From Candidatus Zixiibacteriota bacterium (lineage in GTDB: Bacteria; Zixibacteria; MSB-5A5; SM23-73-2): a stretch of DNA of 26,430 nt. Below the pieces are notes generated by a model, which was not told where the DNA came from, did not search any database, and saw nothing but the letters and a program-made list of their open reading frames with translations. The position numbers and the translations under genes are program-made. Below are positions 18,298-26,051 of this stretch, piece after piece (positions within the stretch are counted from its first letter, which is position 1; every line of letters begins with the position of its first letter). The stretch is taken from assembly GCA_030615745.1 (NCBI GenBank), contig JAUWYR010000033.1, forward strand, positions 1 through 26,430, read 5' to 3'.

Positions 18298-18320
18298 GCA
18301 AAAATAAATTTTTGCACTCC
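18298..18320 (-). repeat. GGAGTG-hairpin repeat, copy C, possible mreB terminator
   Basis: GCAAAAAT (18298-18305), AA, ATTTTTGC (18308-18315) and ACTCC (18316-18320) keep the exact geometry of the copies at 20863-20885 and 25962-25984, with one base pair changed on both sides (C/G to A/T). Read on the minus strand it lies 135 bases beyond the mreB stop, where a terminator is expected, though the T-run after it is interrupted (GAATTTCTT). Confidence 0.6.
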
Positions 18321-18330
18321 TTTTCATCTG

Positions 18331-18360
18331 CCTACTATATACTGACTACTGCTACTGACC
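18331..18360. repeat. Short degenerate tandem array (CTACTGAC type)
   Basis: CTACTATATACTGACTACTG and CTACTGACC contain repeated TACTGAC-like units. It lies between mreB and the STAS gene and resembles the arrays at 12916, 14140 and 17481. Confidence 0.5.
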
Positions 18361-18454
18361 CTATATAATCAATCACTTAAAAGCATGGAGTTTGAAGGAA
18401 GATAAAGGTATATTTTTCAACCACAAAATTATTTTAAATAAATTTAATTTCTTA

Positions 18455-19480
18455 TTATCTTTTACCCTTGACCAAAACCTTGGAGTAGCGAGACATATTA
18501 TCCAAAACTATCCCTGTGCCCTTGACCACGCAGGTTAAAGGGTCCTCAGCTACGTTAACTGCTAAATTAGTCTCCTCTCTTAATCTTTTGTCCATTCCCT
18601 TTAAAAGAGCTCCTCCTCCAGTAATGATTATCCCTCGATCCAAAATATCGGAGGCGAGCTCAGGGGGAGTCTGTTCCAAAGCCTGCTTCACAGCTTCAAC
18701 GATCGCATTCACAGGTTCTGAGAGAGCCTTCCTTATATGCTCTGAACTTATAGTTAAGGTCTTAGGAATTCCATTCATCAGATACCTTCCCTTTATCTCC
18801 AGGGAAGTTTCCTCGTCTTCCTGATAGGCTGTGCCGATCTTTATTTTTATATTCTCCGCAGTCCTTTCTCCGATCAGAAGGTTGAAATTCCTTTTTAGGT
18901 GTAACATTATCGCCTCATCCATCTCGTCTCCACCTATTCGGATGGAGATGTTATTGACAATACCGCTCAAAGCTATAACCGCTATCTCAGATGTGCCCCC
19001 TCCTATATCTATAACCATACTACCAGATGGCTGGTCAACTGGCAATCCCACACCTATTGCAGCCGCCATAGGTTCCTGAATAAGGTAGACCTCCCTTGCT
19101 CCAGCATTCTCCGCTGAATCCCTGACCGCTCTTTTTTCCACCTCGGTTATTCCTGATGGAACTGAGATCACAATCCTCGGTTTCATAAGATAGCGGTGCT
19201 TGATCACCCTTCGAATGAAATTTGATAAAAGCAATTCTGTCATCTCAAAATCCGCTATAACTCCATCTTTTAACGGACGAATAGCTAAAATACCCTCTGG
19301 GGTTCTGCCTAACATCTCCTTTGCTTGGGAGCCAACTGCTACCACTTTTTTGGTCGACTGGTCAATTGCCACCACCGATGGTTCATTCAGGACAATTTCC
19401 CTACCTTTCACATAAATCAAAGTGTTAGCAGTGCCTAAATCTATTCCAATATCATTGGAGATAAAATCAAAGAAAGACAT
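18455..19480 (-). CDS. mreB: MreB, rod-shape-determining actin homologue
   Basis: MreB polymerises under the inner membrane and guides peptidoglycan synthesis in rod-shaped cells. The 341-residue protein is full-length. Actin-fold motifs are visible: phosphate-1 [16 protein letters not shown] (11-26), [16 protein letters not shown], phosphate-2 [16 protein letters not shown] (about 154-169), and the adenosine motif [15 protein letters not shown] (about 284-298). The start is fixed by its neighbour: its ATG follows immediately after the TGA of the YhaM gene, and its Shine-Dalgarno (GAGGAGGAG) is formed by the Glu codons at the end of that gene. mreC and mreD, often next downstream, are not in the window; a 440-base repeat-rich gap follows. 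Confidence 0.97.
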
Positions 19481-24010: not shown

Positions 24011-24081
24011 GTCCTCTAATTTAGGTAAACCTTTGTTAGAATTTTTTTAAGTGATTCAAAGAAAAATCTTAAAGGACTTTT

Positions 24082-24690
24082 ATGTCTTTTAAAATAAAAA
24101 AAGCTTTGTTTTTCAAGCCAATTTATAAACTCGAAGAACTGCCAGAACAAAACTTTCCACAGATAGCTTTTGCTGGAAGGTCGAATGTGGGCAAGTCATC
24201 TCTTATGAACACATTAGTGGGGCAAAAAAGTTTGGCGAAAACAAGCTCTACACCTGGAAAAACTGTAAGGATCAATTTTTTCTTAATAAATGATAAGATT
24301 TATTTTGTTGACCTTCCCGGATATGGATATGCCAAGACCTCCAAAAAGGAAAAAAAGGTGTGGGGAAGCTTAATCGAAGGATATTTTCGAAATTCAGAGA
24401 ATTTAAAAGGGATAATCCAGATAATAGATATAAGGCATCCACCTTTTCCATCGGATATAGAGCTTTTAGAGTTTTTATCTTTTTATAAAAAATCAGTGCT
24501 TGTGGTTCTAACCAAAGCTGATAAGCTATCTAAATCTAAGATGATGGAGAGTCAAAAGAAGGCAAAAGAAATTCTGAAATTGAATGAAAATTCTTTAGTA
24601 GTCTTCTCAGCTAAAACCAAAATGGGGAAAGATGAGATCTTATCTTGGATAGGTTCTAAAACTTTAAAAAGAGAGATTTTATGTCAGTGA
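24082..24690 (+). CDS. engB: EngB/YsxC-family ribosome-biogenesis GTPase
   Basis: EngB is a small GTPase needed for assembly of the 50S subunit. The 202-residue length fits. G1 is [10 protein letters not shown] (31-40), G2 the Thr in SSTPGKT (55-61), G3 DLPGYGYA (77-84) and G4 LTKADK (143-148). An AAAGGACT site upstream supports the ATG. Its last ten bases overlap the start of purA in another frame, so purA translation is probably coupled to it. Confidence 0.95.
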
Positions 24691-25955
24691 GGATTGTAGT
24701 AGGAACACAGTGGGGGGATGAGGGAAAAGGGAAGGTGGTGGATATTCTTTCTGAGGAGTCTGATATAGTGGTGAGGTATCAGGGAGGGGCTAATGCAGGT
24801 CATACTGTGGTTATAGACAACCATAAATTTATCCTTCATCTTATTCCCACTGGGATTTTGCATTCTGATAAGATTTGCGTTATCGGGAATGGAGTTGTCT
24901 TAGACTTAAATCAGTTTTTTTTTGAATTAGATGAATTAGAAAAAAAGGGGATTAATACTGTTGGAAGGCTTTTAGTTTCAGATTCTGCGCATTTAGTTAT
25001 GCCCTATCATAAGTTAATAGAAAAACTTAACGAAGAAAAAAAGGGAGAGGAAAAAATAGGAACAACCAAAAAGGGGATAGGTCCTGCTTATTTAGATAAG
25101 ATCGGGAGAGTCGGTATAAGGGTAGCTGACCTTTTTGATGAGGAGGTTTTTAAAAAAAAGCTTAAGCTAAATTTTGAATTGAAAAAATTCTTTTGGGAGA
25201 ACTTCTCCTGGGAAGAACTGAAAGACTTAGAAAAGAAGTCAGAAGATATTTTAAAGTTCAGAGAAAAGTTAAAACCCTTAGTTGTGGATAGCTCGGTCTA
25301 TTTAAATGATGCTATAACAAAGGGTAAAAACATCTTGTTAGAGAGTGCCCAGGGGACCCTTTTGGATATAGATTTTGGCACTTATCCCTATGCTACCTCA
25401 TCCCATACCACAGCTGGTGGAGCCTGCATTGGTTCAGGGATTGGCCCAACTTTTATCGATGAGGTGATCGGAGTTGCAAAAGCCTATACCACAAGGGTGG
25501 GAAATGGTCCCTTTCCCACTGAGCTCAGAGAAGGAGTTGGAGATATGTTAAGAAAAAAGGGAGAGGAGTTCGGAGCGACAACTGGAAGACCGAGAAGATG
25601 CGGATGGCTGGACTTAGTCATACTTAAGCATTCTATTAGAGTTAATGGAATAGATAAACTTGTTATTACCAAATTGGATGTTTTGGATGAGCTTGAATCT
25701 ATTCTGGTCTGCGTTGGATACAAATATAAAGGCAAAACTTTGGATGAGTTTCCAAATGACCTGAACACATTAAATAACTGCGAGCCGATTTACGAAAAGC
25801 TTTCCGGATGGAAAAAAGCTACCTGTGGTTTGACTAATTACAATGATTTACCTGAAAAGGCAAAATCATATTTAGATTTTATTCAGAAAAGCTTAAAAGT
25901 CCCAATTTTTATGGTATCCACAGGGTCTAAAAGAGAAGAGACGATTATGGTGTGA
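24681..25955 (+). CDS. purA: Adenylosuccinate synthetase
   Basis: It makes adenylosuccinate from IMP, aspartate and GTP, the first committed step to AMP. The 424-residue protein shows the GTP P-loop-like motif GDEGKGK (12-18), [10 protein letters not shown] (about 34-43), [12 protein letters not shown], the [16 protein letters not shown] segment, and the C-terminal KLDVLDEL and [10 protein letters not shown] motifs. It overlaps engB by ten bases; an AGAGAG site sits before the ATG, and a GTG two codons in is a possible alternative start. Transcription appears to end at the hairpin repeat just downstream. Confidence 0.97.
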
Positions 25956-25961
25956 TTTTTT

Positions 25962-26051
25962 GGAGTGCAACAATTTATTGTTGCATTTTTTCTGTCCGTC
26001 GAGGATACCTTGTTAGTAACAAAGAGAGGTAACGGATGAGGTATCTTTTTT
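25962..26051 (+). terminator. purA terminator formed by GGAGTG-hairpin repeat, copy B
   Basis: GGAGT (25962-25966) is followed by the perfect stem GCAACAAT-TT-ATTGTTGC (25967-25984) and ATTTTTTCTG, an intrinsic terminator seven bases after the purA stop. A second hairpin follows: GATACC (26004-26009) with GGTATC (26040-26045), enclosing TTGTTA-G-TAACAA, and then six T. The order and the shared GGTAACGGA match copy A at 20798-20885 in inverse orientation. Confidence 0.8.

Follow-up and report, generated by a model that had tools for sequence, protein, structure and literature searches.

The closest described relatives of the repeats analysed here are the GTAG-tagged REP elements and their RAYT (TnpA-REP) transposases (Nunvar 2010, PMC2817692; Di Nocera 2013, PMC3733652; PMC8266576). 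In these systems a short perfect hairpin with a loop of 2-4 nt stands 0-2 nt behind a tetranucleotide, many copies are dispersed between genes, some of them as inverted doublets, stem changes are compensated, and the RAYT gene sits amid its own REPs. The tetranucleotide is GTAG or GTGG, with GYAG, GYRG, GTRG and GTMG also listed; overall, the REP tags described so far are GTAG or close variants, and CGTC. In the E. coli TnpA-REP, the W94-R104 region supplies some of the residues that touch GTAG, and W94, Q95 and R104 are well conserved in the RAYT groups with GT(A/G)G REPs (PMC6006769, PMC8266576). The E. coli system tolerates no substitution in the tag, and known TnpA-REPs cleave at CT (PMC8266576).

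We analysed a stretch of 26,430 nucleotides from a Candidatus Zixiibacteriota bacterium (hereafter, the window), in which three hairpins with a GGAGT foot had been pointed out. They share with the GTAG systems the short perfect hairpin behind a tetranucleotide, the small loop, the many copies between genes, the inverted doublets and the compensated stem changes, the RAYT flanked by its own REPs being found in relatives. They differ in the tag, which here is GGAG, in a RAYT clade with an altered tag-contact motif, and in the host, an order of Zixibacteria. The REP of the Group 3 REPtron Mb of Marinomonas is likewise short and perfect, with a TTTA loop whose first and last bases are paired, comparable to the TTTA and CTTG tips found here; however, its GTAG tag lies two bases from a 5-bp stem and its enzyme motif is different (PMC8266576). 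The REPINs of Pseudomonas are inverted REP doublets as well, whereas here singlets dominate and the window's own genome lacks a matching RAYT (PMC3116915). In the REP papers that were searched, we found no GGAG tag.

A dispersed family of GGAG-tagged hairpins

The three hairpins and the longer unit shared by two of them are the following.

18298..18320, minus strand: GGAGT-tagged REP singlet, GGAGT GCAAAAAT TT ATTTTTGC, 134 nt past the mreB stop codon
20863..20885, minus strand: GGAGT-tagged REP singlet, GGAGT GCAACAAT TT ATTGTTGC, between divergent genes
25962..25984, plus strand: GGAGT-tagged REP singlet, GGAGT GCAACAAT TT ATTGTTGC, 7 nt past the purA stop codon
20814..20887, minus strand: common unit of about 75 bp, copy 1, consisting of the REP and following sequence with GGTAACGGA
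25960..26036, plus strand: common unit of about 75 bp, copy 2, the counterpart of 20814-20887

The original prediction gave the coordinates and geometry of these hairpins exactly. It also described a difference of one compensated base pair between copies, and this is indeed present: the odd copy is the one at 18298, with C-G replaced by A-T through a change on both arms. The longer similarity that it had noticed between two copies holds for those at 20863 and 25962, which are 86% identical over about 75 bp including GGTAACGGA. The similarity runs about 50 bp beyond the hairpin (local score 63, compared with a maximum of 39 in shuffled sequences), and a search of the own genome finds this longer unit in these two copies in total.

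The hairpin itself is far more widespread. With 3 mismatches allowed, GGAGTGCAANAATTTATTNTTGC occurs 43 times in the genome and the reversed pattern not at all; the pattern GGAGTG-N7-TT-N7-C has 85 matches versus 17 for the control. These 85 matches split cleanly into 14 with 1-4 stem pairs and 71 with 6-8 pairs, 55 of the latter being perfect. Since we counted a match as palindromic if at least 6 of 8 positions pair, a condition that about 1.5% of random sequences would satisfy, the genome holds at least 71 copies of the strict form (GGAGT, 8-bp stem, TT centre). Among 30 distinct palindromic copies, 97.9% of cells pair compared to 67.8% after shuffling, and changes on both sides of a pair occur in 69 cells versus 18.9 in shuffles, a value reached in 0 of 500 shuffles. 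The signal is destroyed when the partner position is slid. Such changes touch seven of the eight stem pairs, which taken alone is unremarkable (83 of 500 shuffles). Changes in the stem are thus overwhelmingly compensated, as the prediction of a dispersed, mobile hairpin family with selected pairing had implied, and we consider that part of it to be the right reading.

At the innermost pair, the pyrimidine is nearly always on the 5' side and the tip reads TTTA or CTTG. The folded unit is a 7-bp stem with a 4-nt loop, within the range typical of REPs (stem 7-20 bp, loop 2-5 nt). The tag, on the other hand, is not the GT(A/G)G expected at the foot of a REP: among 90 copies collected with a search that required GGA[AG][TC] there are 78 GGAGT, 7 GGAAT, 4 GGAGC and 1 GGAAC. 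The base ahead of the tag is T in 68% of cases (CT in 20 of 90, TT in 30 of 90), in line with the CT cleavage of known TnpA-REPs (PMC8266576).

Most copies are intergenic: 75 of the 90 unique copies, a few of them looser than the strict form, lie outside predicted ORFs, as do 22% of background positions, the locations being based on fetched loci and a simple ORF caller instead of full annotation. The family also forms inverted doublets (BIME/REPIN), so that its units are either singlets of 23 nt or doublets of 107-130 nt. Doublet membership in the own genome is 19 of 81 copies, as against 6% at random positions, and in relatives whole doublets surround RAYT genes. One doublet lies in the window and is absent from the original prediction.

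20602..20725, no strand assigned: REP doublet (BIME/REPIN) of 124 bp, GGAG tags outward at both ends, internal hairpins between
20602..20639, plus strand: left half of the doublet, a REP with stem GTCAAGCT/AGCTTGAC whose loop is widened by a 15-bp insert
20617..20631, minus strand: GCCTGCCCGGCCAGG, the insert of 15 bp within that loop
20703..20725, minus strand: right REP of the doublet, GGAGTGTTAGTCTTTAGGCTAAC

Other repeats are present in the window. A dispersed repeat of another type, about 30 bp long (GTAAGGAGGTAACTCCTGACACC), lies at 26048-26086; about 20 or more weak matches to it occur across the genome, and it may constitute another REP family. Positions 18100-18168 and 20752-20770 read as parts of a palindromic repeat, TTGCGAGCCCGAAGGGCGTGGCAATCC...GATTGCTTCGTCG, and the fragment at the contig end, 26160-26430, reads like an interrupted transposase or integrase gene.

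GGAG hairpins and a RAYT clade in related genomes

Within the order, the pattern GGAGTG-N7-TT-N7-C has 24-121 matches per genome versus 9-27 for the control (weakly in two genomes); the other class members do not rise above the control. The named records in which the repeat recurs are candidate division Zixibacteria SM23_73_2, SM1_73 and two further Zixibacteria MAGs, with UASB270 as the single outside match. All 11 genomes of the order encode RAYTs above the curated REP_Tyr_transpos cut-off. Of 49 RAYT genes examined, 24 have GTAG hairpins nearby and six are flanked by GGAG hairpins, the latter in genomes G001, G002, G005, G009 and G010. Four of the six (L157, L168, L172 and L230) have GGAG doublets on both sides; a fifth (L166) is likewise flanked by doublets, one tag of which has mutated to GTAG; the sixth (L234) is the weakest, with single, shorter GGAG hairpins. 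In the maximum-likelihood tree, the six form one clade with support of 99/99. Two members weaken the link between tag and clade: L234, with its short single hairpins only, and L248, a long-branched RAYT inside the clade that has no GGAG REPs at all. The doublet located 5' of L230 in a genus-mate can be aligned with that in the window; the two agree in 86 of 104 gap-free columns, and the 15-bp insert corresponds exactly to the largest gap. Judging from this alignment, the window doublet is homologous to the doublets bordering the GGAG RAYT of the genus-mate.

The enzymes of this clade have the hallmarks of TnpA-REPs, namely the HuH motif, one catalytic Tyr (Y115) and N119, intact in all six, as well as a match to the TnpA-REP structure 4ER8. 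The region corresponding to the tag contacts is nonetheless rebuilt. Among the GTAG-flanked RAYTs, Q95 is kept in 19 of 24 and H101 in 20 of 24. In contrast, all six RAYTs of the GGAG clade have Y, H or W in place of Q95, one residue deleted behind it, H101 lost and C at position 102. As GGAG goes with one RAYT clade and with a rebuilt tag-contact motif, enzyme and tag have probably switched together, and we infer that the clade reads GGAG through this motif, otherwise acting like other TnpA-REPs. The altered motif would then be the cause of the GGAG preference. Because the change occurred a single time in evolution, the link between tag and motif is a correlation with a plausible reason at the level of contacts.

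Searches with PF01797 and NF047646 found three RAYTs in the window's own genome by the NCBIfam model, all of which pass the REP_Tyr_transpos cut-off but fall short of the one for transpos_IS200. Profile search and tree place none of these three genes in the GGAG clade, and none is flanked by GGAG REPs as its own: two are directly beside GTAG REPs and the third has no REPs. A GGAG pair does occur 69-149 nt past one of them, outside the GTAG REP of that gene. At locus L148 (1265-1345, 1373, 2000), the best RAYT of the genome is adjoined by GTAG REPs (GTAGGTCAGGAGC...GCTCCTGAC), with a GGAG doublet just outside. In G005, G009 and G010, a GGAG-clade RAYT is found directly downstream of ahcY (L157, L172 and L166, all from one family). 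The corresponding place in the window is

11418..11563, minus strand: interval downstream of ahcY, without a RAYT, where relatives carry a GGAG-clade RAYT and REP doublets

and tblastn detected no remnant of such a RAYT in the window, this interval included. In the lineage of the window, the ahcY-side RAYT may have been lost or may never have been present. Since no RAYT of the GGAG clade was found in the own genome, where most of the REPs stand as singlets, a form interpreted in Pseudomonas as what remains of doublets (PMC3116915), the window copies look like relics, an orphaned population, unless the enzyme sits in the unassembled part of the genome.

A probable variant REP/RAYT system and its alternatives

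Based on these observations, we consider it very probable that the hairpins represent a GGAG-tagged type of REP element, partnered in relatives by a RAYT clade of their own. In view of the tag, we call them a variant rather than a standard member of the REPs. Each unit would consist of the GGAG tag, a single T and a perfect palindrome of 8 bp centred on TT; it folds into 7 bp with TTTA or CTTG as the loop and occurs alone or as a doublet with outward tags. By analogy with known systems, the RAYT, an HuH Y1 transposase, would bind hairpin and tag in single-stranded form, cleave beside them and insert the unit at another intergenic site. Having to recognise both tag and hairpin, such an enzyme would let stem mutations survive mainly when they are compensated. 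Within the order, GGAG accompanies one RAYT clade, and the usual GTAG the others. Several points count against this reading. The tag differs from the canonical GT(A/G)G; the own genome lacks a GGAG-clade RAYT, so that no enzyme was found beside these very copies; and the doublet fraction, 19 of 81, is below that of active Pseudomonas systems (PMC3116915).

The original prediction had proposed that the hairpins are terminators moving about the genome, that is, mobile or duplicated hairpins that end transcription together with a T-run and are kept for that purpose. Two copies were said to lie just after gene ends; this is true of the one at 25962, 7 nt from the purA stop, but 18320 is 134 nt away from the mreB stop, and the genes on either side of 20885 are divergent. 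The purA copy does have an extended hairpin of 12 pairs followed by T6, the 20863 copy also has T6, and copies of the subfamily with GCA... stems lean slightly towards the coding strand downstream of a gene (by hand count, 16 of the 21 in tandem intervals; p=0.027, uncorrected for multiple looks). For the family as a whole, however, T-runs follow 21 and precede 30 of 90 copies, the distribution over tandem, convergent and divergent intervals equals the intergenic background, so that the predicted preference for gene ends is not seen, and the AT-rich stems are weak as RNA (-3.6 kcal/mol for the commonest type). A regional terminator scan gives 9 versus 8.7 expected, and the GGAG tag would be left unexplained. 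As a family, the hairpins do not show the combination of G+C-rich stem, T-run behind it and placement after gene ends that marks intrinsic terminators, and they are quite unlikely to be terminators in general, even though single copies may qualify, and the copy after purA may well terminate transcription by chance of its place. A hairpin that is immobile and conserved by the host as a regulatory RNA or protein-binding site would account for the strong pairing. It would also agree with the fact that the genus-mate G001 has a GGAG hairpin (GGAGCGCAACAACTTGTTGTTGC) at the corresponding position behind purA, with a compensated tip pair (CTTG for TTTA); this copy may be either inherited or an independent insertion. 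Yet of eight order relatives read in the purA 3' region, six have no GGAG hairpin and G005 has a different GGAGT hairpin, the Rfam search matched solely a tRNA, and the flanking of RAYTs would have no explanation. We regard such a function as extremely improbable.

Terminal hairpins or remnants of IS200/IS605 elements would involve a related enzyme superfamily and also have a tetranucleotide beside the hairpin. Nevertheless, this origin is very unlikely, given that the three RAYTs of the genome fall on the REP_Tyr_transpos side of the cut-offs and that the units, singlets and doublets alike, have no IS body and no IS200-type Y1 transposase between hairpins. MITEs of an ordinary DDE transposon would be in keeping with the inverted ends of the doublets and with the integrase-like fragment at the right end of the window, as read from its sequence. 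But singlets predominate, stems vary freely with compensation, and the association that was found is with RAYTs, leaving MITEs an exceedingly slim chance.

A 15-bp insert in REP palindromes

The insert in the left REP of the window doublet, GCCTGCCCGGCCAGG, is itself a repeat, with 85 exact copies in the genome. It is followed by G in all 77 unique contexts, and the 16-mer that includes this G has 134 copies at up to 2 mismatches versus none for the control. Besides the window copy (20617-20631, minus strand), the loci are L002-L087 and L250-L289, and L088-L116 in other species. When the flanks of 48 copies were joined, 22 of the joined sequences recurred elsewhere in the fetched own-genome loci at up to 2 mismatches, several of them exactly, as empty sites that match the filled ones. 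The insert lies inside a palindrome of at least 7 bp in 38 contexts, as do 6.5% of random positions, and the sites include GGAGT REPs, GTAG REPs and other palindromes. By eye, it is also in frame in two ORFs resembling transposase genes. In G033, which belongs to a different family within the class, it interrupts a REP native to that species, GTAGGGGTTT|GATTAATCAAACCCC. The 16-mer is present in only 7 of 132 genomes of the phylum. It is tempting to speculate that GCCTGCCCGGCCAGG is a mobile 15-bp DNA unit, inserted precisely and only before G, with a preference for the tips and stems of unrelated REP palindromes; we see this as possible, although the odds are rather against it. Diverged copies, tandem copies with substitutions and duplicated loci that bear the insert argue against a sequencing artefact.

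Downstream of purA in G005 (L180), a GGAGT REP has another short sequence, GGTTCGACAAGCTCACCA, in its loop. It may be that REP loops generally attract inserts of very small size.

The literature searched contains no match to the 15-mer. Elhai in 2008 reportedly described the SDRs of cyanobacteria as very small mobile repeats. Like these and the REP-targeting IS elements (PMC1525189), GCCTGCCCGGCCAGG is a very short dispersed unit with precise insertion and a preference for palindromic repeats; unlike them, it is only 15 bp long, always stands before G and has no assigned enzyme. If it is indeed mobile, its spread would require a novel type of micro-insertion directed at hairpins.

As for the REPs themselves, the own genome, with many copies and no matching enzyme found, would represent a REP population that has outlived its transposase. 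More generally, a GGAG system occurring in nature, with a RAYT clade of its own and a rebuilt motif for reading the tag, would offer a ready-made case for studying the joint change of a single-strand transposase and its DNA tag.
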